Shown: piece after piece, positions 4,230 through 15,698 of the stretch
How positions within the stretch are numbered: the stretch's first letter is position 1
Layout of the letters: every line of letters begins with the position of its first letter
Source of the DNA: Hymenobacter sp. YIM 151858-1
GTDB taxonomy: Bacteria; Bacteroidota; Bacteroidia; Cytophagales; Hymenobacteraceae
Direction of reading: 5' to 3'
DNA length: 64,000 nucleotides
Assembly (NCBI RefSeq): GCF_025979705.1
Contig: NZ_CP110136.1
Location: 434,001-498,000, forward strand
Notes under the pieces: generated by a model
The model's database searches: none
Told to the model about the DNA's origin: nothing
The model's input: the letters and a program-made list of their open reading frames with translations, nothing else
Program-made: the position numbers and the translations under genes

Positions 4230-4237
4230 TACCTTTG
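4230..4237 (+). promoter_or_regulatory. Original ABC-F gene promoter (-7 box), now reading into the element
   Basis: The octamer tacctttg matches the Bacteroidota -7 consensus TAnnTTTG. It lies 34 bases upstream of an ATG at 4264 that begins MISIS, the start expected for the ABC-F gene whose body is now at 12014-13950. After insertion of the element this promoter faces the integrase gene. No clear -33 box was seen. Confidence 0.6.
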
Positions 4238-4263: not shown

Positions 4264-4410
4264 ATGATTTCCATCTCGAATCTAATATGGTGGGATGATA
4301 AAATACTCTGTTTACAAAAACCTTGTTTTTGCCTTGTTTATGCGGTTTGCAGGAGAGCATCGGGGAATCGGTTCTACTCTGCTAGGCTCTGTTTGCTGAC
4401 TAAGTGCTGA
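4264..4410 (+). pseudogene. Orphaned 5' start of the ABC-F gene, cut off by the element
   Basis: An ATG at 4264 followed by ATTTCCATCTC encodes MISIS, then the frame leaves the ABC-F sequence at 4278 and continues into element DNA until TGA at 4410 (48 codons). The same 13 bases recur at 12014-12026, where they continue as SDLDFHFG, the genuine start of the ABC-F protein. Joining the host halves restores an ATG-initiated MISISDLDFHFGARTLYDG. The stop is only 13 bases before the integrase start, so the fragment may couple translation to the integrase. Confidence 0.75.
4265..4277 (+). repeat. attL core, 13-bp direct repeat
   Basis: tgatttccatctc, identical to 12014-12026. With one mismatch the match extends to 17 bases (tac[a/g]tgatttccatctc). 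It sits at codons 1-5 of the original ABC-F frame. Confidence 0.75.
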
Positions 4411-4415
4411 CTAAA
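4394..4415 (+). repeat. Integrase arm-type doublet, left
   Basis: Two adjacent 11-bp units, tgctgactaag and tgctgactaaa, in direct orientation 117 bases inside the left core. A matching doublet is at 11950-11971 near the right core. Paired short direct repeats flanking a core are typical of binding sites for the N-terminal arm domain of tyrosine integrases; assignment here is inferred from position. Confidence 0.55.
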
Positions 4416-4423
4416 TTCCCGAA

Positions 4424-5764
4424 ATGGCTGCTATCTTGCCATGGCGTCTAACAAAAGCGGGCGCCAGCGCATATATGCCCAAAAAGCCGAATTCCCGAAA
4501 TCTAACGGTGGTACTCCGCAACCTCGATAAGCACGGGTTTGCCAGCGTCTATGTGCAGTACACCTACCAACGGCAGCCCAAGCGTTTCCCGACCGGCGTA
4601 AAGGTGCTACCGGATGGCTTTGAAGATGGGAAGGTGGTGCCGTGCCAGAAGGTAGCCAAGTGGGCAGAGCATAACGCTACCGTAGCCGCCCGGAATTCCG
4701 ATATCGACAAGGTGAGAACGGAGTTAGACGGATTGATTCAGCTTCACCAACTGCAATTCAAGGCGCTGCCGCCGTTGGATTGGGTAGCGGAGCGGTTTGA
4801 GGCGCCTCGCAACGTGGAAAAAGGTGAGAGGCGGGACTTCTGGCAGTGCTTTGACGCCTTACAAATAGAGTCAGAGGCATCGGTAAAACAGAAGACTGCT
4901 AAAAACAACACGGTGCGGACGTTGAAGCCGCTGCGCACGCTGTTGCGGGAATTCGAAACGGCGCGGGGTATCCGGCTTACGTTCGACTCTTTCGATTACA
5001 AGCTGTTCGGGGAACTTAATTCGTTTATGCTGGCAGATGGAATGCTAAACGGCAGCATTCGCACGCGGCTGGCAAAGCTCAAAGCGGTACTTAACCATTT
5101 CGTGCGGGAGGGAGCGTGCAAGAATGTGGCGTTTCGGGAGTACCGATTCGACCGGACAAAGCAGAAGGATGCTCCCAACAACCAAAGGATTTTCGCGCTG
5201 AGTGAGCAAGAGTTTGATGAGTGGCGGGCGGTGAACTTGTCTGATAACCCTCGATTAGAGTATGCCAGGGATTTATTCGTGCTCTGCGCTTCTACAGGGT
5301 TGCGCTACAGTGATGCTATTAGGGTGAAGCCTACCAACGTAAGCGGGGGTGTGCTGCGCATTACCACACAGAAAACCGGGGATAACCTTGCCATTCCGTT
5401 GAACGAAAAGTCAGCCGCCGTACTGGCGAAGTATCCCAAGGGAATGAAGGCGGTTGACTTGGCTCTGTACAATGCGCGGCTGTTAGAAATAGCCCAACGT
5501 TGCCCCTCGTTACATGTGCCTTTCGAAACCATGGCCTACAGCGGAGGGCGGGAAGTGCGGCGTACGAAAGGAGGGGAGGTTAAGGAAATGCGCTGGCAGC
5601 ACGTAACCTCGCACGCAGGGCGCCGGACGTTTGTTTGCCTCTGCCTTGCCAAAGGATTTCCCGAATTCAAGATTCGCAGTTGGACGGGCCACAAAGACCT
5701 CAGCTCGTTTGTGCGGTACGTGGACACCGAAACGGGGGGAAACGCTATAATGGCCGGTTTCTAA
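4424..5764 (+). CDS. Tyrosine-type site-specific integrase
   Basis: A 446-residue phage-type integrase, or 429 residues if the second ATG at 4475 is used (MPKKPNSRNLTVVLRNLDKH), which better matches the family N-terminus. Order: arm-binding domain (about 20-110), SAM-like core-binding domain (about 130-250), catalytic domain (about 265-446). Catalytic residues visible: Arg in CASTGLRYSDAI, Lys in TTQKTGDN, His-x-x-Arg in SHAGRRTF, and His/Trp plus Tyr in SWTGHKDLSSFVRYVDTE. It should cut and join at the 13-bp core repeats. It lies just inside attL and probably reads from the captured ABC-F promoter at 4230. It is complete and likely active. Confidence 0.93.
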   Translation: MAAILPWRLTKAGASAYMPKKPNSRNLTVVLRNLDKHGFASVYVQYTYQRQPKRFPTGVKVLPDGFEDGKVVPCQKVAKWAEHNATVAARNSDIDKVRTELDGLIQLHQLQFKALPPLDWVAERFEAPRNVEKGERRDFWQCFDALQIESEASVKQKTAKNNTVRTLKPLRTLLREFETARGIRLTFDSFDYKLFGELNSFMLADGMLNGSIRTRLAKLKAVLNHFVREGACKNVAFREYRFDRTKQKDAPNNQRIFALSEQEFDEWRAVNLSDNPRLEYARDLFVLCASTGLRYSDAIRVKPTNVSGGVLRITTQKTGDNLAIPLNEKSAAVLAKYPKGMKAVDLALYNARLLEIAQRCPSLHVPFETMAYSGGREVRRTKGGEVKEMRWQHVTSHAGRRTFVCLCLAKGFPEFKIRSWTGHKDLSSFVRYVDTETGGNAIMAGF

Positions 5765-5827
5765 GCTGTTTTGTTGCGGGTTTATTCGTGGTAGCTTGCT
5801 CTACACTAATAAACCAACCATCCAATC

Positions 5828-6058
5828 ATGCTTGAAGTCAAAACAGAGAACGGCATTCGTTTAGTCAATCCTAATTACATCGTAGGCGCCCGTTGGGTTA
5901 GCAAAACCAGTGTGCTTATTCAGATGCAGCGCGAGCACTTGGACGCGGTTGTAGCCTTCGACAGTGCTGAAGCGGCTCAAGAATTTTGGGACAAGCTGAA
6001 AGGTAAAACCGGCAAAGAAGGCAGCGTGTACGATACCCGTGGGCTACTAGAATTCTAA
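5828..6058 (+). CDS. Hypothetical protein, 76 aa, element-borne
   Basis: Short soluble alpha/beta-looking protein beginning MLEVKTENGIRLVNPNYIVG and ending in an acidic-basic helix (AAQEFWDKLKGKTGKEG). No family was recognised. It is 63 bases past the integrase stop on the same strand and is followed by a hairpin terminator, so it may be the last gene of an integrase transcript. Confidence 0.6.
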   Translation: MLEVKTENGIRLVNPNYIVGARWVSKTSVLIQMQREHLDAVVAFDSAEAAQEFWDKLKGKTGKEGSVYDTRGLLEF

Positions 6059-6080
6059 GCCCTACGAATACAAGCTCAAT

Positions 6081-6112
6081 AGCCTCGTTGCCCATGGCGA
6101 CGGGGCTTTTTA
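6081..6112 (+). terminator. Terminator after the 76-aa gene
   Basis: Hairpin agcctcgttgcc / gcgacggggct with G-U pairs followed by five T residues, 22 bases past the stop at 6058. Confidence 0.6.
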
Positions 6113-6166
6113 GTGGAGCAATACAGCAATAGCGGGTTTGTAACCTTTCAGAGTTAATATTAGTCC

Positions 6167-6418
6167 ATGAAACGAATCGGGGCTATCGTAAGCTATATCC
6201 TCACTCTAATGGTCGGGGTACCCCTAATACTTGCTGCTGGCTGCGCACTTATCGCCTTTATCTACTGGCTGATGATTTTCGGCCCTTCCGAAATGTGGGC
6301 GGCGCTTACTACTGCTATTCGAGTCGGGTTCAATCACGAATGGAAATTTGCTGAAGTCTTACTGGTGTTGCTTGTGGCATATCTAGTGCTCCGCAAACGG
6401 AACCCAACTGGGGCATGA
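6167..6418 (+). CDS. Small membrane protein, 83 aa, element-borne
   Basis: Two predicted membrane spans: residues about 7-38 (IVSYILTLMVGVPLILAAGC onward, possibly a long or kinked pair) and about 60-77 (EVLLVLLVAYLVL), ending in a positive tail RKRNPTGA. No family was recognised. Its TGA overlaps the ATG of the next gene (ATGA at 6415-6418), so the two are translationally coupled and probably act together in the membrane. Confidence 0.6.
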   Translation: MKRIGAIVSYILTLMVGVPLILAAGCALIAFIYWLMIFGPSEMWAALTTAIRVGFNHEWKFAEVLLVLLVAYLVLRKRNPTGA

Positions 6419-6726
6419 AAAAGAGCTTCGAGAACTACGCCATTCAAGTTTATTCAGTAGTAGGCGGGTTGCTTTCAGCCGTATGGATGCTGCTTGTAGT
6501 ATGGGAGGTGCTGGTAAGAGTACTGCCAAGATTTGCAGAATGGGCTAACGAGGTTGGGCAAACGTTCATGCAGCATCATTGGCGTTGGGAAGAGGCCGTG
6601 CTTTATGGAGGGCTAGCCGCCATTGTTTACCATCGTTTTCATAAAGCATGGGAAAGCTTTCTCAGATGGTTGTGGGGAAAGGTGAGGCGCCGTGCTAGCC
6701 ACGTTGCAGAGGAAAAGTCACTGTAA
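6415..6726 (+). CDS. Small membrane protein, 103 aa, element-borne
   Basis: One strong membrane segment at about 11-37 (VVGGLLSAVWMLLVVWEVLV) and a second weaker hydrophobic stretch at about 58-75 (EAVLYGGLAAIVYH), then a basic tail (WGKVRRRASHVAEEK). Function unknown. It overlaps the previous gene by four bases and is followed by a terminator. The pair sits directly ahead of the restriction-modification gene, so a link to phage defence or element maintenance is possible but unproven. Confidence 0.6.
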   Translation: MKKSFENYAIQVYSVVGGLLSAVWMLLVVWEVLVRVLPRFAEWANEVGQTFMQHHWRWEEAVLYGGLAAIVYHRFHKAWESFLRWLWGKVRRRASHVAEEKSL

Positions 6727-6738
6727 GGTGGCTTTTTT
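6713..6738 (+). terminator. Terminator after the membrane-protein pair
   Basis: Hairpin aaaagtcac / gtggctttt with a T-run (ctttttt), overlapping the stop codon of the 103-aa gene. It separates that transcript from the restriction gene. Confidence 0.55.
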
Positions 6739-6909
6739 CGTTTTGGAGCAGCGGGAGAGGCTACCGCATGAATAAATTGTTGCTGTGGGGCGCCTATTTC
6801 ATGGGATTTTGAGTGGAGTGTCCAAGTATAAATCCAACCGGTTTCTTGTAAAAAAGATGGTAGCGACACCATAACTTGCTGCCCGCTTTTACCTGATACC
6901 GTTTGACCT

Positions 6910-9663
6910 GTGGCACTAAGCCTATTCGAGATTAAAGACCGTGCTATTCGCTTTGCGCAGGAGTGGCAAGGCGAAACCAGAGAGCACGCCGAAGCCAAGG
7001 CGTTCTGGGGAGAATTCTTCGATGTGTTCGGCATAAACCGCCGCCGCGTGGCCACTTTCGAAGAGCCCGTTAAAAAGCTATCGGGGCAGCAAGGGTTTAT
7101 TGATTTGCTCTGGAAAGGCACCCTGCTAGTAGAGCACAAATCGCGGGGCAAAGACCTCGACAAAGCCGTGCAGCAGGCCAAAGACTACTTTCCCGGCCTC
7201 AAAGACCACGAGCTGCCCAAGTACATCTTGGTTTCCGACTTCGCCCGCTTCCGTCTCTACGACCTCGATGAAGAGACCAGCTTCGACTTTCCGCTCGAAG
7301 AGCTGCACCAGCACCTACACCTGTTCTCGTTCCTGACGGGCTACCAGAAGCGCCAGTATAAAGCCGAAGACCCCGCCAACATCCGGGCGGCCGAGCTGAT
7401 GGGCGACCTGCACGACGCCTTGCTGCGCGGCGGTTACACAGGCCATAAGCTTGAGGTGTTGTTGGTGCGAATTCTCTTCTGCCTGTTTGCCGAAGACACT
7501 GCCATTTTCGAAAAAGACGCGTTCCGCTCTTTTCTGGAAGAGCACACCCGGGACGATGGCTCCGACGTGGGCACCCAGCTGGCCCAATGGTTTTCAGTGC
7601 TCGACCAACGCCCGCAAGACCGGCAGCGACAGCTACCCGCGCACTTGCAGCAGTTGCCTTACGTTAACGGTTCCCTCTTCACCGAGTTCTTCCCATTTCC
7701 GGCCTTCGATGCGGCCCTGCGGGAGCAGCTGATTCGCTGCACATATTTCGATTGGTCGCGCATTTCGCCAGCCATTTTCGGCTCACTGTTTCAATCCGTA
7801 ACCGACCCCATAAAGCGCCGCAACTTAGGCGCCCACTACACGTCTGAAGCCAACATACTGAAGGTAATTCAGGGGCTGTTTCTCGACGAGCTGCGTCAAG
7901 AGCTGGCCGCCGCTGGCCAAAACCGTCAGAAGCTCGACCAGCTGCACCGGCGCCTCGAAAAACTGCGCTTCCTCGACCCCTCATGCGGCTGCGGCAACTT
8001 CTTGGTTGTTACCTACCGCGAGTTGCGCCTGCTGGAGCAGGAAATCCTAGAGCGCCAGTTCGCCGCACAGGTAGCCAAAGGCCAGACCGTTGATTTAGCA
8101 TTGTATGCCCGCGTGCAGGTAGACCAAGCCTACGGCATTGAGGTAGAGGAATTCCCGGCCCGCATTGCCGAAGTGGCCATGTGGTTGATAGACCACCAAC
8201 TGAACCTGCGCCTCTCCGAAGCCTTTGGTAACCTCTACCTGCGTTTGCCCCTCACGCGGACTGCCAAAATTATACATGGCAACGCGCTGACCACTGATTG
8301 GGAGCAGGTAGCGCCGAAAGACCAGCTGACCTACATCCTGGGTAATCCGCCATTTATTGGCTCGAAGCTGATGACGGAGCAGCAGCGCAAGGAGTTACTG
8401 GCAGTGACGGGGCCAAAACTGCAAGGCGCGGGCGTGCTCGATTACGTAGCCGCGTGGTACCTCAAAGCCGCGCAGTACATCCAAGGCACCGCCGTGAAAG
8501 TAGCTCTGGTAAGCACCAACAGCATCACACAGGGCGAGCAGGTAAGCATCTTGTGGGGCGAAATGCTTAACCGCTACGGCATTCACATTCAGTTTGCACA
8601 CCGCACCTTTAAATGGAGCAATGAGGCGCGCGGAAATGCCAACGTGTTTTGCATTATCGTAGGATTCGGGCTTGATGCTCCTGCTGTTTGTCGGCTCTTT
8701 GATTACGTAACCCCTCGGTCTGAGCCGCAAGAGTTGCGCGTCAAGAACATCAACCCTTACCTAGTTGATGCAGGTAATATTGTAGTTGCAAGCCGTAGCA
8801 AACCTTTAGCACAGATTGCACCAATGCGCTTCGGCAATATGCCTCTTGACGGTGGGAACCTAATACTGGATGAGCAGGAAAAAGAGGAGTTATTATCAGC
8901 AGAACCATTAGCCGGAAAATTTATTCGTCCCCTCATAGGCGCCCATGAGTTCCTAAATAATAAGCATAGATGGTGCTTATGGCTAGTTGATGCAACCCCT
9001 ACAGACCTGAAGGAGTTGCCCTTGGTTCAAAAGCGAATTAAGCTTGTAAAAGAATTTCGGGAATCCAGCACCGCTCCCTCTACCCGGAAATTTGCACTAG
9101 TACCCAGCTTATTTCGTGATACCAAGCAGCCGACCAGTACCTACTTGGTTATTCCACTTCACTCATCCGAGTCAAGGCGATATATACCAATTGGTTTTAT
9201 TGAACCTCACTGTATTGCGAACAATAGCTGTTCGATAGTGCCAGATGCTAACTTGTATCAGTTCGGGGTAATGACGTCCGCTATGCACATGGCATGGGTA
9301 CGACAAATCTGTGGCCGTCTAAAAAGTGATTTCCGCTATTCAAAAGACCTCGTCTACAACAACTTCCCCTTTCCCGCCTCGCCCACGCCCAAGCAGGTAG
9401 CCGCCGTAGAGGCCGCGGCCGGGCAAGTGCTAGCGGCGCGGGCGCAATTCCCTACCGAGAGCCTAGCCACCCTCTACGACCCTTTAACCATGCCTCCGGC
9501 TTTGGTAAAGGCCCACCAGCAACTAGACAAAGCTGTTGACCTGTGCTACCGTGGCGCCGCATTCCCAACTGAATTGAGCAGATTAGAATATCTATTCGAG
9601 GAATACCGTCGTTTAGCCAGCGAGCCAGGGAAAGTAACAAAGGCAAAGCAGATTGCAGTATAA
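6910..9663 (+). CDS. Type IIL (MmeI-like) restriction-modification enzyme
   Basis: A 917-residue single-chain enzyme, almost the length of MmeI. It starts at GTG 6910. Order: N-terminal nuclease domain with a PD-(D/E)xK-type site (GFIDLLWKG at about 62, EHKSRG at about 74), a helical linker, an N6-adenine methyltransferase core with motif I DPSCGCGNFL (about 353) and motif IV LGNPPFIGS (about 478), then a target-recognition domain from about 620 (FIRPLIGAHEFLNNKHRWCLWL region near 673). In this family one protein both methylates one strand of its site and cuts unmodified DNA, so no separate methylase or specificity gene is needed. The target sequence cannot be read from the protein. It is the likely defensive cargo of the element. 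Confidence 0.92.
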   Translation: MALSLFEIKDRAIRFAQEWQGETREHAEAKAFWGEFFDVFGINRRRVATFEEPVKKLSGQQGFIDLLWKGTLLVEHKSRGKDLDKAVQQAKDYFPGLKDHELPKYILVSDFARFRLYDLDEETSFDFPLEELHQHLHLFSFLTGYQKRQYKAEDPANIRAAELMGDLHDALLRGGYTGHKLEVLLVRILFCLFAEDTAIFEKDAFRSFLEEHTRDDGSDVGTQLAQWFSVLDQRPQDRQRQLPAHLQQLPYVNGSLFTEFFPFPAFDAALREQLIRCTYFDWSRISPAIFGSLFQSVTDPIKRRNLGAHYTSEANILKVIQGLFLDELRQELAAAGQNRQKLDQLHRRLEKLRFLDPSCGCGNFLVVTYRELRLLEQEILERQFAAQVAKGQTVDLALYARVQVDQAYGIEVEEFPARIAEVAMWLIDHQLNLRLSEAFGNLYLRLPLTRTAKIIHGNALTTDWEQVAPKDQLTYILGNPPFIGSKLMTEQQRKELLAVTGPKLQGAGVLDYVAAWYLKAAQYIQGTAVKVALVSTNSITQGEQVSILWGEMLNRYGIHIQFAHRTFKWSNEARGNANVFCIIVGFGLDAPAVCRLFDYVTPRSEPQELRVKNINPYLVDAGNIVVASRSKPLAQIAPMRFGNMPLDGGNLILDEQEKEELLSAEPLAGKFIRPLIGAHEFLNNKHRWCLWLVDATPTDLKELPLVQKRIKLVKEFRESSTAPSTRKFALVPSLFRDTKQPTSTYLVIPLHSSESRRYIPIGFIEPHCIANNSCSIVPDANLYQFGVMTSAMHMAWVRQICGRLKSDFRYSKDLVYNNFPFPASPTPKQVAAVEAAAGQVLAARAQFPTESLATLYDPLTMPPALVKAHQQLDKAVDLCYRGAAFPTELSRLEYLFEEYRRLASEPGKVTKAKQIAV

Positions 9664-9696
9664 AAAAAGGGCGGCTGAAGAGCTGCCCTTTTTTAT
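9662..9696. terminator. Terminator of the restriction-modification gene
   Basis: Inverted repeat aaaaaagggcggc / gctgccctttttt with a T-run on either strand, starting at the stop codon. Confidence 0.75.
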
Positions 9697-9950
9697 AAAT
9701 GTTTAAAAATTAAAACGGAATTTATTTCTCGGTGATGTGTGCGTAGGTCCTACATTTTCCACTGCCCCGGCCTATCCTGGGGGGAGGAGGGGGATATGAG
9801 CGTATTTTGCTGTCCTATTATATTCAGTGTGCTTTGATTAACACCTGTGCTATATTGCCTGCATGAATAAAACATCGGTATAAGTGCAAAAAAACAACAT
9901 TAATTGAGGGTTAGGAACAAGGTGTTTTACGCCATGGTGGTATCGTACTG
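9697..9950. other. AT-rich gap inside the element
   Basis: About 250 AT-rich bases between the convergent restriction gene and the Rep-like gene. A G-run (cctggggggaggagggggatatg, positions about 9775-9798) stands out. No gene was seen. An origin site for the neighbouring Rep-like protein could lie here or at 11139-11332, but no defined iterons were found. Confidence 0.4.
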
Positions 9951-11138
9951 TTAACCCAGGTTGTTAATAGGGGTTAGGCAACGAAATACATGTTCAATGT
10001 TGACTTGACGAGTCATGGCTTCTTGCGTCGGCGCCCCATTGTAGGACTCCGCATACTTAGCTAGCAAATCAAACCACGAGGAAGCTCCCATTGGGATGGG
10101 CATGGAATTAATGAAATGTAGAATGTAATCCCTCTCCACACCCGAGCCCATTTCAACATACCGATGAACAGCACCCTTCAAGGTTACGCGGTTAAGCCAG
10201 TCTTTGGTTCTGCGGGTAGAACTTGCTGGCGCCATAGCTGGAGGCTCGCCATTCAAAGCATCTAGATTCAATAAGTTGTATCTGCGGTAACGTTTATTGC
10301 GGTGCTTGTCGCGCTCGAACTCTCTGGTATCAACAACTATTAAGGCATTGCCTAATGCTTTGCGGAATAGCCGTTCGAGCTGCATCGTGTCATTTAGTTC
10401 GTCGGGGCCGAATTGAAAAGCTCGCAGATACCGACGTACTAGCCGCACCTCGACTCGCTCGATGGTGGCGCCAACATCGAGACCGTTGCGACGGTGAAAT
10501 GAAGTAATATAGTGCTTCTGCGAGTGGAGGATTTCCTTGCTTTTGTTGTACACTGTTACCTGCTTGCCACAAGAGCCATTTTGGAAGACGCCACGACCAA
10601 AAATAAACTGCTCATCTCCATGGAAGCATCTTAAAGAGTGCTGCGCGGGCTTGAACCAAGCTTCAGGATTTTGTTTTATCCAAGTCGAGTGCCTGTAGAT
10701 ATAGCTTAAATCCTTCAATAAATTGCCGGCCATGTCAAGAGCCAATTCCATTGTGCTAATTTTCACAAATGAAAGCCCAAACGTGGCGCAAATATGTAGG
10801 TAGTAGTAATGCCATCCAGGCTCCGTGTAAAAAACCTCGTTTTCAAATCGTAATCTTACGATTGCCCGATTGGATGAATCATGAGCATTCGTATGTAGAA
10901 TGCCAACTTTGCGATTGTTAATCCAGATATCGAAGCGATAATGAAAATAAGTGTCAGGCTTCCTAAGCGGCCGGAGTACTATTTCAGGGCTAACTAAAAT
11001 AGAGCGCCCTTGTGATGGATACAATCTAGTTAGTTCAGAGTATCCAAGCTGCCCGGATGCAGGCTCTAAGTCTAAAGCAAGTTTGTCAAGAACAAGGGTG
11101 TGATTATTCGGTACAGATATACCGTCATTGATTAGCAT
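9951..11138 (-). CDS. Rep-like protein (possible rolling-circle initiator)
   Basis: A 395-residue soluble protein. Features reminiscent of Rep_trans-type rolling-circle initiators are an FVKISTMELALDMAG strand (about 155), a KQVTVYNKSKEIL strand (about 230) and an IERVEVRLVRRYLRAF segment (about 260), the order seen in those initiators. I could not assign the catalytic tyrosine with confidence. It is encoded opposite to the restriction gene and on the same strand as the excisionase-like gene. The alternative is a structurally similar element protein of other role. The family call is inference from local motifs only. Confidence 0.45.
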   Translation of the reverse strand: MLINDGISVPNNHTLVLDKLALDLEPASGQLGYSELTRLYPSQGRSILVSPEIVLRPLRKPDTYFHYRFDIWINNRKVGILHTNAHDSSNRAIVRLRFENEVFYTEPGWHYYYLHICATFGLSFVKISTMELALDMAGNLLKDLSYIYRHSTWIKQNPEAWFKPAQHSLRCFHGDEQFIFGRGVFQNGSCGKQVTVYNKSKEILHSQKHYITSFHRRNGLDVGATIERVEVRLVRRYLRAFQFGPDELNDTMQLERLFRKALGNALIVVDTREFERDKHRNKRYRRYNLLNLDALNGEPPAMAPASSTRRTKDWLNRVTLKGAVHRYVEMGSGVERDYILHFINSMPIPMGASSWFDLLAKYAESYNGAPTQEAMTRQVNIEHVFRCLTPINNLG

Positions 11139-11332
11139 TTAAGTTGGTGTGAGAGTAAGTACTACACACCAAACATTCCGACATCGAACGAGAATTTGGG
11201 GCCTTTTCGGAGGGAAGTAGCCGATTTTCGTGTTTTTCTATGCTTAGCAATAGTATTTGTTGGGCAACTGATACATTATTGCTCGTAGCTCAAAAAAAGC
11301 TGTGGGTGCTTCACGGCCGTTTCATAGGATTC
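11139..11332. other. Gap between the excisionase-like and Rep-like genes
   Basis: About 190 bases with no gene seen; upstream region of the Rep-like gene. It holds short T- and A-runs but no clear promoter box or repeat. Confidence 0.35.
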
Positions 11333-11758
11333 TTACGTTGGCAAATCCGTTTCCCAAACTCGCCAGCACGCCCTTTGATTTGTGCTCTTCTCATTGAGGT
11401 TGTGGGCCGGTAGTTGTCCGGCCTCTATCATCTTGTACACCTTGGCGGGGGTGATGCTCAGGCGTTGCGCTACCTCGGCAACAGTAAGGCGGCGGGCGCC
11501 AGTTGCGGCATTGGTGTTGCGGCGGGTTTCTTCGGCTGCATGATTTTCTTGGCGCTGCCAATCATCGGCCATAATAAAGCCTGACACGGCCACGGAAAGG
11601 CGGGAGAGAGTATCGGCTAAGGCTTGCAGTTCTTCGCGGGCTACGGCGAATGTTAGACGCTCGTAGCGGGATGCCAGGACGGGCGCCAACTCTGCCGGTT
11701 GAATTCGTTGCATGCGGTACAGGGTATCCTCTATCAATTGGCGGTGGTGTTGCTGCAT
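11333..11758 (-). CDS. Excisionase-like helix-turn-helix protein
   Basis: A 141-residue protein whose C-terminal 55 residues form a MerR/excisionase-type winged helix (HTH_17): RRLTVAEVAQRLSITPAKVYKMIEAG followed by LPAHNLN and WRVWETDLP. The first 80 residues are helical and may dimerise. Position at the end opposite the integrase, between a Rep-like gene and attR, fits a recombination directionality factor that promotes excision. Alternatively it regulates element genes. Confidence 0.7.
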   Translation of the reverse strand: MQQHHRQLIEDTLYRMQRIQPAELAPVLASRYERLTFAVAREELQALADTLSRLSVAVSGFIMADDWQRQENHAAEETRRNTNAATGARRLTVAEVAQRLSITPAKVYKMIEAGQLPAHNLNEKSTNQRACWRVWETDLPT

Positions 11759-11787
11759 GGTGTCGCGTTTACCGATAGTGGAAAACG

Positions 11788-11811
11788 AAAAAAGGCTCCC
11801 ATTGGGGAGCC
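11788..11811 (-). terminator. Leftward terminator near attR
   Basis: Read on the minus strand, ggctccc-caat-gggagcc is followed by six T residues. It terminates leftward transcripts entering from the right end, upstream of the excisionase-like gene. No leftward gene lies between it and attR, so in the integrated state its role is unclear; in the excised circle it could block antisense transcripts coming from the integrase side. Confidence 0.55.
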
Positions 11812-11901
11812 TCAGTCGGTGGTGTTGCTGTTTGGTGCATATATGGTTAAGCCATCGTGTTTGTTAGGACGGGGCACAACTTTTTCGCGGGCGGGGTTTC
11901 G

Positions 11902-11909
11902 TACCTTTG
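11902..11909 (+). promoter_or_regulatory. Element-supplied promoter for the ABC-F gene (-7 box)
   Basis: The octamer tacctttg matches TAnnTTTG and equals the captured host promoter box at 4230. It lies inside the element, 112 bases before the right core, and points at the ABC-F gene. In the excised circle it would point at the integrase instead. Confidence 0.6.
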
Positions 11910-11949
11910 CGGCGCGGCTGGGCTTCAAAAGTTGGGGTACGGCCGCTGT

Positions 11950-11971
11950 AGCTGACTGAATGCTGACTAAG
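11950..11971 (+). repeat. Integrase arm-type doublet, right
   Basis: Adjacent 11-bp units agctgactgaa and tgctgactaag, the second identical to the first unit of the left doublet at 4394. It ends 42 bases before the right core. Confidence 0.55.
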
Positions 11972-11982
11972 TGCCGTAAAAA

Positions 11983-13950
11983 GTGCTTCTGTTGGCTCCT
12001 AATGCGGATTACGTGATTTCCATCTCCGACCTCGACTTTCACTTCGGTGCCCGTACGCTTTACGACGGCGCCAACCTGCATATCAAGCCCAAAGACAAAA
12101 TCGGCCTTATCGGGCTGAACGGTCAGGGCAAATCGACGCTGCTGCGCCTGCTGGTGGGCGAATACAAGCCCGACGGCGGCAGCATATCCATGAGCAAAGA
12201 CGTATCGCTGGGCTTCCTGAACCAGGATTTGCTTAGCTACGACTCGCACGAGCCGATTCTGATCGTGGCCATGCAGGCTTTCGAGGAGGCCCTGGGTCTG
12301 CAGAAGAAGATCGACGAGGTGCTGCTGGAGTTTGAGAACAACTACACCGACGACCTCGTGGATAAGCTGGCTGCCCTGCAGGAGCGCTTCGAGGCCCTAG
12401 GTGGCTACACCATGCAGGCCCGCACGGAGGAGATTCTGGAAGGCCTCGGCTTTACCACCGAAGAGCTGCAGAAGCCGCTGAAGCTGTTTTCGGGTGGCTG
12501 GCGCATGCGCGTGATGCTGGCCAAGATTCTGCTGCAGCAACCCTCGCTGCTGCTCTTGGACGAACCCACCAACCACCTGGACTTGCCCTCCATTAAGTGG
12601 ATTGAGAACTACCTGGCCGATTACGAAGGCGCCGTCATCATTGTATCGCACGACCGCGAATTCCTCGACAACACTACCAACATGACGGTGGAGGTGACGG
12701 GCGGCAAGCTGGTGCCCTACGCCGGCAACTACTCCTATTACATGGAGGAAAAAGCCCTGCGCGACGAGATTCACCAGGGGGCCTACGAAAACCAGCAGGC
12801 GGCCATCCGGCAGGCCGAGCGGTTTATCGAGCGTTTCAAGGCTAAGGCCTCCAAGGCCAAGCAGGCCCAGAGCCGCCAGAAGATGCTCGACAAGATGGAC
12901 CGCATCGACTCGGTAGCGCCCGAGGCGGCCAAGGTCAACTTCTCGTTCCGCTTCTCGGTGCAGCCCGGCCGCCACATCCTGCGCATGGAGCACGTCACGA
13001 AGAAGTACGGCGAGAAGATCATCTTCCGCGATACGAACGTGCACATCGAGCGCGGCGACAAAATTGCCCTGATCGGGGCCAACGGCAAGGGTAAGTCTAC
13101 GCTGATGCGCTTGGTGTCGGGCACCGAAGCGCCCACGGCGGGCACGCACCAGCTGGGCCACAACGTGATTATGGCGTTCTATGCCCAGCACCAGCTCGAA
13201 AGCCTGAACGTGGACAACGAGGTGCTGCAGGAGATGGTGCAGGCCGGCTCGAAGCGCACCGAAATGGAGTTGCGCACGGTGCTGGGCTCGTTCCTGTTCA
13301 CCGGCGACTCGGTGTTCAAGAAGATTAAGGTGCTCAGCGGCGGCGAGAAAAGCCGCGTGGCCCTGGCCAAAACGCTGATTTCGGAAGCCAACTTCCTGCT
13401 GCTCGACGAACCGACCAACCACCTGGACATGCAGTCGGTAAACATCCTGATTCAGGCCCTGGATCAGTTTGAGGGCACCTTCCTGGTCATCAGCCACGAC
13501 CGGTACTTCGTGGAGAACGTGGCCACTAAAATCTGGTACATCGAGGACTACCAGCTGAAGGAATACCCCGGCACCTACCACGAGTACGAGCAGTGGCAGG
13601 AAGAGCGCGCCAAAGAAGCCAAAAAGCTTGGCCTGAATACGCCGGCTGCTTCCAAAGCCAAGCCCGTGGAGGTGAAAAAAGAACTGAGCCAATCGGAGCG
13701 CGAAACCGCCCAACGCGAGCTAAAGCAGGTAAGCAAACAGTTGCAGGAAGTAGAAGCCCGCGTAAGCAAGCTGGAGCAGGAGCTGGCCGGCTACGAAAAA
13801 CAGCTCGCCGACCCGAACATCTACAACAACGCCGCCCAGCTCAAGGACGCCACCGTGAAGTTTGAGCAGGTGAAGAAGGAGCTCGGCAAGGTGAACGACC
13901 AGTGGAGCGAGCTGGCCGAGAAAGTAGAAGTGCTGGAAGGCAAGCTATAG
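11983..13950 (+). CDS. ABC-F family ATPase (ribosome-associated), element-altered start
   Basis: A 655-residue protein with two ABC domains and no membrane part. First domain: Walker A GLNGQGKSTLL (about 43), signature LFSGGWRMRVMLAKILL, Walker B LLLLDEPTNHLD (about 189). Second: Walker A GANGKGKSTLM (about 365), signature LSGGEKSRVALAKTLI, Walker B LLLDEPTNHLD (about 471). An arm linker (about 260-310) and a C-terminal coiled coil (about 585-655) match Uup/YdiF-type ABC-F translation factors. The element replaced the first codons: translation may begin at GTG 11983 (adding about 10 residues, LLLAPNADY) or at GTG 12013, one base different from the original ATG. The body is intact, so it is probably still made. 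Confidence 0.92.
   Translation: MLLLAPNADYVISISDLDFHFGARTLYDGANLHIKPKDKIGLIGLNGQGKSTLLRLLVGEYKPDGGSISMSKDVSLGFLNQDLLSYDSHEPILIVAMQAFEEALGLQKKIDEVLLEFENNYTDDLVDKLAALQERFEALGGYTMQARTEEILEGLGFTTEELQKPLKLFSGGWRMRVMLAKILLQQPSLLLLDEPTNHLDLPSIKWIENYLADYEGAVIIVSHDREFLDNTTNMTVEVTGGKLVPYAGNYSYYMEEKALRDEIHQGAYENQQAAIRQAERFIERFKAKASKAKQAQSRQKMLDKMDRIDSVAPEAAKVNFSFRFSVQPGRHILRMEHVTKKYGEKIIFRDTNVHIERGDKIALIGANGKGKSTLMRLVSGTEAPTAGTHQLGHNVIMAFYAQHQLESLNVDNEVLQEMVQAGSKRTEMELRTVLGSFLFTGDSVFKKIKVLSGGEKSRVALAKTLISEANFLLLDEPTNHLDMQSVNILIQALDQFEGTFLVISHDRYFVENVATKIWYIEDYQLKEYPGTYHEYEQWQEERAKEAKKLGLNTPAASKAKPVEVKKELSQSERETAQRELKQVSKQLQEVEARVSKLEQELAGYEKQLADPNIYNNAAQLKDATVKFEQVKKELGKVNDQWSELAEKVEVLEGKL
12014..12026 (+). 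repeat. attR core, 13-bp direct repeat
   Basis: tgatttccatctc, identical to 4265-4277, encoding the second to fifth residues (ISIS, preceded by GTG) of the ABC-F protein in frame. Confidence 0.75.
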
Positions 13951-14900: not shown

Positions 14901-15698
14901 TTACAAGCCTAGGCTGTCGAGTGGAGAGGCCGGGCGGTTGCGTTGGGCGACATGGGTGTAGATTTCGGTGGTTTTGATACTGGCGTGTCCGAGCAAATCT
15001 TGGATGACCCGGATACCCGTCCCGGCTTCCAGCAGGTGCGTGGCATAGGAGTGGCGTAGCATGTGCAGCGTGACGGGGCGCCGGATACCGGCCCGCGCGG
15101 CGGCTTGTTTTACCAGCTGCTGCAGGCTTCGCTCGCTGTACGGCTCGCCCGGCTGCTGCCCCTCAAATAGGAACGTAACGGGCCGAAACTGCCGGTACTG
15201 CTTGCGCAATAAATGTAGTAAACTCACCGGCAGCGGCAGGTCGCGGTCTTTTTTGCCCTTGCCGCCGCGCACATACTGCGCCATTCGTTTGCTGTCGATG
15301 TCGGTGGGTGAGGGCCAGCACTTCGCTCAGCCGCAGGCCCAGGCCGTAGGCGAGCATCAGCATGTCCCGGTGTTTCCGGTTGTCGGTGCCGGCCAGCAGG
15401 GCGCGCACCTCCACTTTGGCCAATACTTTCGGATTGGTCAGGGGCTGCTTGGGGCGGGGCACGGCGTAGTGCTGCCGGGGCTGGCCTTCTACCTGCTCGT
15501 AGTAAAACTTGATGGCGTTGTTTGGTACGTCTCCGAAATACCGGTCCCCACGCGCGCCGCCAGGTAATCCAGCACGTCCTGTTTGCTCAGCTCCAGCGGC
15601 AGGCGCGGGGCGTGGTAGGCAAGCAACTGCTGGAAGGCCGTGCGGTAGTTTTTGAGGGTGGCCGGGCTGTACCTTGAGGCCGCGCATAGCAGTAGCAC
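14901..15698 (-). pseudogene. Tyrosine recombinase pseudogene (two frameshifts, 5' end lost)
   Basis: Three pieces in order. The N-terminal core-binding part (RYSPATLKNYRTAFQQLLAYH, from 15698) and the C-terminal catalytic part ([36 protein letters not shown], ending SPLDSLGL at 14901) share one frame. The middle (NNAIKFYYEQVEGQPRQHY to [17 protein letters not shown]) is in another frame. Two compensating indels, near 15540 and 15290, break it. The family is the solitary integrase common in Bacteroidota. The start is missing because the T9SS plug gene begins 40 bases away on the other strand. It is inactive unless the shifts are sequencing errors. Confidence 0.8.

Follow-up and report, generated by a model that had tools for sequence, protein, structure and literature searches.

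The window analysed here, a stretch of 64,000 nucleotides from the 4.62-Mb, three-contig genome of Hymenobacter sp. YIM 151858-1 (contig NZ_CP110136.1, positions 434,001 to 498,000), contains an integrative element that occupies codons 1-5 of an ABC-F gene, and thus the 5' part of the coding sequence of a conserved gene. Overall, the arrangement is probably best explained by an exchange of promoters in which the element brings its own. The element would insert by tyrosine recombination into these codons and, because the integrase gene is co-directional with its target, integration would exchange the promoters: the host promoter and its ATG would remain at the left, reading now toward the integrase gene, and ABC-F would receive its promoter, leader and start codon anew from the right end of the element. 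After excision as a circle, this element promoter would point through the joined attachment site (attP) at the integrase. The most likely reason for keeping a right-end promoter is that the host needs to express this conserved target gene, and relatives at tRNA sites appear to hold a replacement terminator at the matching end instead. From the sequence we infer promoter activity of the right-end box, excision, changed ABC-F expression and promoter switching of the integrase.

The 13-base-pair (bp) core repeat TGATTTCCATCTC is present in exactly two copies in the window, at 4265-4277 and 12014-12026, as described in the original prediction, which was made from the letters of the window alone; with up to two mismatches it is found at 3 sites, against a mean of 0.55 over 100 shuffles. 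The element measures 7749 bp from core to core (4265 to 12014). The same prediction had placed a site-specific element in codons 1-5 of ABC-F and had proposed to look in relatives for an uninterrupted junction of promoter and gene. Indeed, this junction was found in seven of seven sister species of the genus (the window's own species is not among them), where the uninterrupted gene reads box, ATG and ISISDLDFHFG, and in each of them the host flanks of the two ends align to a single continuous sequence. On the host side of the left end, the alignment before the ATG has 31-37 identities in 38-41 columns; the core agrees in 13-14 of its 14 bases, and 65-74 of the 74 bases that follow it on the host side of the right end match as well. 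On the element sides, 14-18 of 74 bases match after the left core, and 16-22 identities over 39-42 gapped columns are found before the right core. Farther out, the sequence left of the element aligns in one of the seven sisters (76.6% over 1319 bp), and in the other six, where short loci were compared, just the 39-49 bp next to the site align. The marks of a tyrosine-recombinase element are all present: an integrase adjoins one end, the core repeats are direct and relatives have the site uninterrupted. Additionally, a 20-base arm-type repeat, GCTGACTRANTGCTGACTAA, has just two occurrences with up to two mismatches (4395 and 11951), each close to one end of the element, and was never seen in 100 shuffles. 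At the level of nucleotide sequence, the insertion, its empty site in sister species and a layout conserved in related elements can be regarded as established, and the whole is read as a small integrative element with restriction cargo, inserted by tyrosine recombination and predicted to excise.

Promoter-type boxes lie at both ends of the element. The first copy of TACCTTTG, at 4230, stands 34 bases upstream of the ATG at 4264 and the second is found at 11902; the original prediction had named both, together with the GTG codons at 11983 and 12013, and all are in place. In Bacteroidota, the -33/-7 promoter consensus is given as TTTG/TANNTTTG in the accessible part of a published study (PMC6847099). 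The evidential weight of the box derives from its position and not from its number: it was found within 200 bp upstream of ABC-F in 35 of 35 element-free loci, compared with 4.8% (367/7600) of random 200-bp stretches from the same loci, and in all 35 it lies 28-39 or 87-101 bp from the ATG. These loci comprise 29 of the 30 best-scoring from 148 genomes and 6 of 8 chosen genomes; the window itself (the thirtieth best-scoring) and two genomes described below (G208 and G162) were left out as element-bearing.

The right-end layout is shared by related elements. Among 204 genomes of the family, matches to the integrase (E<=1e-30) were obtained in 22, including one close group of five integrases to which the window's belongs and whose other four members are 48-51% identical to it. 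Their genomes match the records of Hymenobacter sp. BRD67 (G208), H. duratus BT646 (G162), Hymenobacter sp. CA1UV-4 (G226) and a Hymenobacter metagenome-assembled genome (MAG; G217). The BRD67 and BT646 elements (9506 and 4255 bp core to core, respectively) occupy the same ABC-F codons, with an exact core repeat and the native box kept at the left. The CA1UV-4 element (12,937 bp, core ATGATTGAAGTATC) interrupts codons 1-5 of a gene that encodes an ABC ATPase and follows the gene of an MlaE-family permease; because of this neighbour we call the target mlaF-like, as a gene of lipid transport. Its product scores below cut-off with the MlaF model, as it does with many other models of ABC ATPases. 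In these three further complete elements the core repeats are exact and 13-14 bp long. The MAG yields a left end alone, behind an MlaE-like end and with the core ATGATTGAAGTCTC; its contig ends inside the element and a second contig has mlaF directly behind mlaE, for which reason it was excluded from right-end counts. This MAG, in which one mlaE precedes the left end of the element and a separate mlaE-mlaF locus is free of it (L123, L168), probably represents mixed strains.

In all five left ends the integrase gene lies beyond the core and is oriented like the target gene, and in all four complete right ends the order is box, TGACT repeats 11 bp apart and core, so that the promoter-type box and start codon noticed earlier at the window's right end recur in three related elements. 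The box, TACCTTT(G/A), precedes the start codon by 111, 114, 123 and 114 bp, as TACCTTTG in three elements and TACCTTTA in one; the chance of a box-like 8-mer in a given 21-bp range is about 0.6%. Twenty mlaF loci were sampled, of which 9 failed the start pattern and went unmeasured and 11 were measured, one of them being the CA1UV-4 element. None of the 10 element-free loci (mlaE marker directly upstream in 7, not found in 3) has a box within 150 bp, and the CA1UV-4 box would therefore be an addition by the element. Outside the family, no member of the integrase group was found in a sample of 390 genomes of the order (best outside match 1.6e-51, against 4.8e-214 for the window's own), the window's own genome alone matched at E 1e-80 in a sample of 395 from the phylum, and single-sequence scans of genome contigs and viral contigs returned no close integrase relative.

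Five more distant relatives with two resolved ends each sit at tRNA 3' ends, the adjoining tRNA being recognised by ARAGORN in 5/5, and the integrase gene of each begins 155-196 bp beyond the left core. Their right ends, read from the tRNA into the element, carry a hairpin with a T-rich tail in 5/5 (-12.8 to -25.1 kcal/mol), and a displaced host hairpin is found at each left end (5/5, -13.5 to -25.0 kcal/mol). By contrast, no ABC-site right end has a terminator hairpin (0/4, best -4.5 kcal/mol); the best value on the opposite strand of the nine right ends is -4.6 kcal/mol. Conversely, TACCTTTN is present within 200 bp in 4/4 ABC-site right ends and 0/5 tRNA-site right ends, one of the latter having TAGCTTTG at 163. 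Each kind of element thus carries the signal that its target loses, a rule based on five tRNA-site and four ABC-site elements. One further integrase row (G020) was labelled tRNA-type from its left end alone, its repeat not having been found in 28.7 kb downstream, and stands outside the terminator count; two resolved ends were likewise lacking for L098 and for L090, L091 and L093, which were matched through the Rep-like protein described below and in whose stretches no integrase was found. At a tRNA-Phe 3' end elsewhere in the window's own genome lies another integrase/Rep element, a distant relative of the first (L088, C1 about 3477000-3483000).

In a tree of 44 integrases, 33 of which are rows without a resolved site, the five ABC-site rows form one branch (support 100/100), nested in a 15-row group (99/96) with all 6 tRNA-site-labelled rows and 4 rows of unknown site. 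The pair of integrases at mlaF sites groups with the BRD67 integrase, which targets ABC-F (100/99), and this suggests a move of target from ABC-F to mlaF; the placing of the BT646 integrase beside them is weak (83/40). Integrases with different targets are 68-70% identical in one pair.

Several observations weigh against the proposed exchange. The window contains 24 copies of TAnnTTTG on both strands where a Markov model expects a mean of 24.0, and the count was dropped as evidence. The last base of the CA1UV-4 right-end box departs from the consensus, and a -33 element is not evident by eye in all four right ends. Furthermore, a TAnnTTTG box stands close upstream of the integrase start in several relatives, with an exact TATCTTTG near that start in the MAG and a near match in the window; the integrase may hence have a promoter of its own, and transcription from the host promoter may be additional and perhaps not needed. 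The hairpin scan also returned one irregular match of -12.5 in the window's host flank, and is therefore not fully specific.

The start codon at the site has been altered by the element from ATG to GTG, and the other three complete elements restore ATG. If translation starts at 12013, this is the sole change at the N-terminus; a start at 11983 would add ten residues. The latter possibility, with an N-terminal addition comparable to the altered DusA N-terminus of dusA elements, draws on a reading frame that is open from GTG 11983, and we consider it rather unlikely: the aligned codon is ATG in all 35 element-free loci as well as in the other two ABC-F elements, and the sequence of the upstream extension is not shared. 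Neither of the two conditions that the original prediction had named as refuting it came true, given the empty site in all seven sisters and the aligned ATG in the 35 element-free loci. Starting from GTG 12013, ABC-F is probably translated more weakly than with the three ATG-restoring elements, given the GTG and a four-codon out-of-frame open reading frame (ORF) that overlaps it by GTGA. In Bacteroidetes, extra AUGs near starts are under-represented, as far as the available part of PMC6847099 states. The arm repeats sit in the new leader, between box and start codon, and binding of integrase or excisionase could consequently affect transcription of ABC-F.

A second alternative, to which we give a small chance, holds that the right-end box mainly serves the integrase in the excised circle, as does the 3'-end promoter of ICEKp1, and that transcription of ABC-F is a by-product. 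The geometry of ICEKp1 is indeed present, with a co-directional integrase at 5/5 left ends and, at 4/4 right ends, a box that would face it across attP, and the visible text of PMC13023037 provides the precedent for a circle promoter. However, the tRNA-site relatives, which have the same layout at the integrase end, carry no box at that place (0/5), and several relatives have one near the integrase itself. The two roles of the box do not exclude each other.

Silencing or strong reduction of ABC-F by the element, with a box ineffective as a promoter and a dispensable gene, appears improbable. The GTG start with its overlapping ORF would fit such an outcome, and expression of dusA fell after integration in the case described in the accessible text of PMC8409611, but ABC-F retains an unbroken reading frame, ATG is restored by each of the other complete elements (three) and the box is conserved in 4/4. 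Chance repeats and boxes with no element at all, for which the chance-level number of TAnnTTTG might speak, deserve practically no credence given the empty sites in 7/7 sisters and three other elements whose repeats and layout agree.

The element encodes a tyrosine integrase, three small ORFs, an MmeI-type restriction enzyme, a Rep-like protein and an excisionase-like helix-turn-helix (HTH) protein (Table 1). The integrase start at 4475 follows from alignment, the longest ORF beginning at 4424.

Table 1. Features of the element and of the interrupted ABC-F gene (window positions)
Feature	Position	Strand	Remark
Native ABC-F promoter's -7-type box (TACCTTTG)	4230..4237	+	Now at left end, reads toward integrase; predicted promoter
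Native ATG and left core repeat (attL)	4264..4277	+	13-bp repeat 4265-4277
Left pair of arm-type repeats	4395..4414	+	TGACT twice, 11 bp apart; putative arm role
Tyrosine integrase	4475..5764	+	PF00589, PF13102, PF17293 above cut-off
Small ORF, 76 amino acids	5828..6058	+	No family above cut-off
Small ORF, 83 amino acids	6167..6418	+	No family above cut-off
Small ORF, 103 amino acids	6415..6726	+	No family match
MmeI-type restriction enzyme-methyltransferase, cargo	6910..9663	+	Five MmeI domains (Pfam); PADLOC REase_MTase_IIG 1190.9 bits
Rep-like replication initiator	9951..11138	-	Weak label; own best PHROG E=0.037
Excisionase-like HTH protein	11333..11758	-	HTH_17; TIGR01764 'excise' 30.2 bits, cut-off 28.8
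Element-borne -7-type box (TACCTTTG)	11902..11909	+	Reads toward ABC-F; predicted promoter
Right pair of arm-type repeats	11951..11970	+	Between box and start codon; putative arm role
Four-codon out-of-frame ORF	12002..12016	+	Overlaps GTG start by GTGA
ABC-F gene	12013..13950	+	Start codon now GTG 12013; in-frame alternative GTG 11983
Right core repeat (attR)	12014..12026	+	13-bp repeat

The window's own protein gives the Rep label weak backing; the label rests on nine homologues, of which three match the PHROG 'replication initiation protein' and one matches Pfam Rep_trans. The protein had no match in phage records, plasmid records or viral contigs, a profile of the nine homologues retrieved no convincing solved structure, and a single-sequence structure model (predicted local distance difference test 33.3) was uninformative. 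In the BRD67 element the Rep-like gene is present as two separate ORFs (L092 9138-10264). Comparison of the seven element proteins with Pfam and NCBIfam recognised no relaxase or conjugation genes, and one homologue showed Rep_trans-like kinship. A prophage is not supported: no convincing structural family was found for these proteins in PHROGs (one weak tail match, E=0.017). The related elements carry cargo of their own: a C5 methylase, a DUF4928 protein and a Vsr nuclease in BRD67, and a type I restriction system in CA1UV-4, with a DUF1883-TIR protein beside it (L124 15874-16665, minus strand); no restriction gene was seen by eye among the ORFs of the BT646 element, one of which was scanned. 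Just downstream of ABC-F, at 14901-15698 on the minus strand, the window holds a second tyrosine recombinase (XerC/D-like by eye) in overlapping frames, apparently split by a frameshift. Regarding ABC-F itself, an altered antibiotic response had been suggested earlier. The gene is present in all 90 family genomes searched and, among the best 25 of its 205 NCBIfam matches, just the broad 'ribosomal protection-like ABC-F' is above cut-off; the resistance reading was dropped for lack of support.

Integration at a 5' end with supply of a new promoter is less rare than the original prediction had stated: the available text of PMC8409611 demonstrates it for dusA elements and states it for SXT, which uses prfC. 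In the parts of the reports at hand, dusA-specific elements, e.g. IMEVchUSA3 (PMC8409611; PMC4482086), resemble the window's in using the 5' end of a conserved translation-related gene and in bringing a new promoter with the frame kept, the window's promoter being predicted from its box. Unlike it, they add a new N-terminal stretch and their effect on expression was measured, whereas the window's element probably alters start codon and leader alone and its group targets ABC ATPase genes in Bacteroidota. SXT (PMC8409611) similarly enters the 5' end of a translation factor gene with a new promoter, but is described there as a large conjugative element of Gammaproteobacteria that provides a new N-terminus. 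SpyCI elements at mutL share the 5' end of a conserved gene and consequences for its expression, predicted ones in the window's element (PMC3430984; PMC4689407); in the accessible text, however, SpyCIM1 blocks mutL transcription (PMC4689407), and rescue by a cryptic promoter is limited to a decayed SpyCI copy (PMC3430984). Integrase promoter switching has been shown for ICEKp1 (PMC13023037). In the visible part of that report, the integrated integrase of ICEKp1 and ICEclc lies downstream of, and co-directional with, a host promoter, and a 3'-end promoter faces it upon excision, a likeness of geometry alone in the window's element; ICEKp1 differs in using a tRNA 3' end, and its 3'-end promoter is not described there as transcribing any protein-coding gene of the host. 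Replacement of promoters at 5' ends (dusA, SXT at prfC) and integrase promoter switching (ICEKp1) are thus known already, to the extent that these partial texts reach. What appears new is the use of ABC-ATPase start codons as targets in Bacteroidota and the contrast of promoter and terminator within one family; ABC-F or mlaF start codons were named as integration sites in no title or visible abstract found in a literature search.

We tentatively suggest, as a less secure extension, that the 'repair end' of such elements is exchangeable, with a terminator where the target is a tRNA 3' end and a promoter and start codon where it is an ABC ATPase start, that their integrases moved from ABC-F to mlaF, and that arm-site binding by integrase or excisionase might tune a translation factor, tying host translation to the decision to excise. 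If the proposal holds, compensation of the host gene would be a selectable module, with terminator or promoter carried according to the target end that is cut, and would provide a sequence rule to predict which elements silence their targets and which spare them. The list of 5'-end integration sites gains the start codons of ABC-F and mlaF-like genes in Bacteroidota, and the integrases that are 68-70% identical and differ in target constitute a natural pair for studying specificity change.

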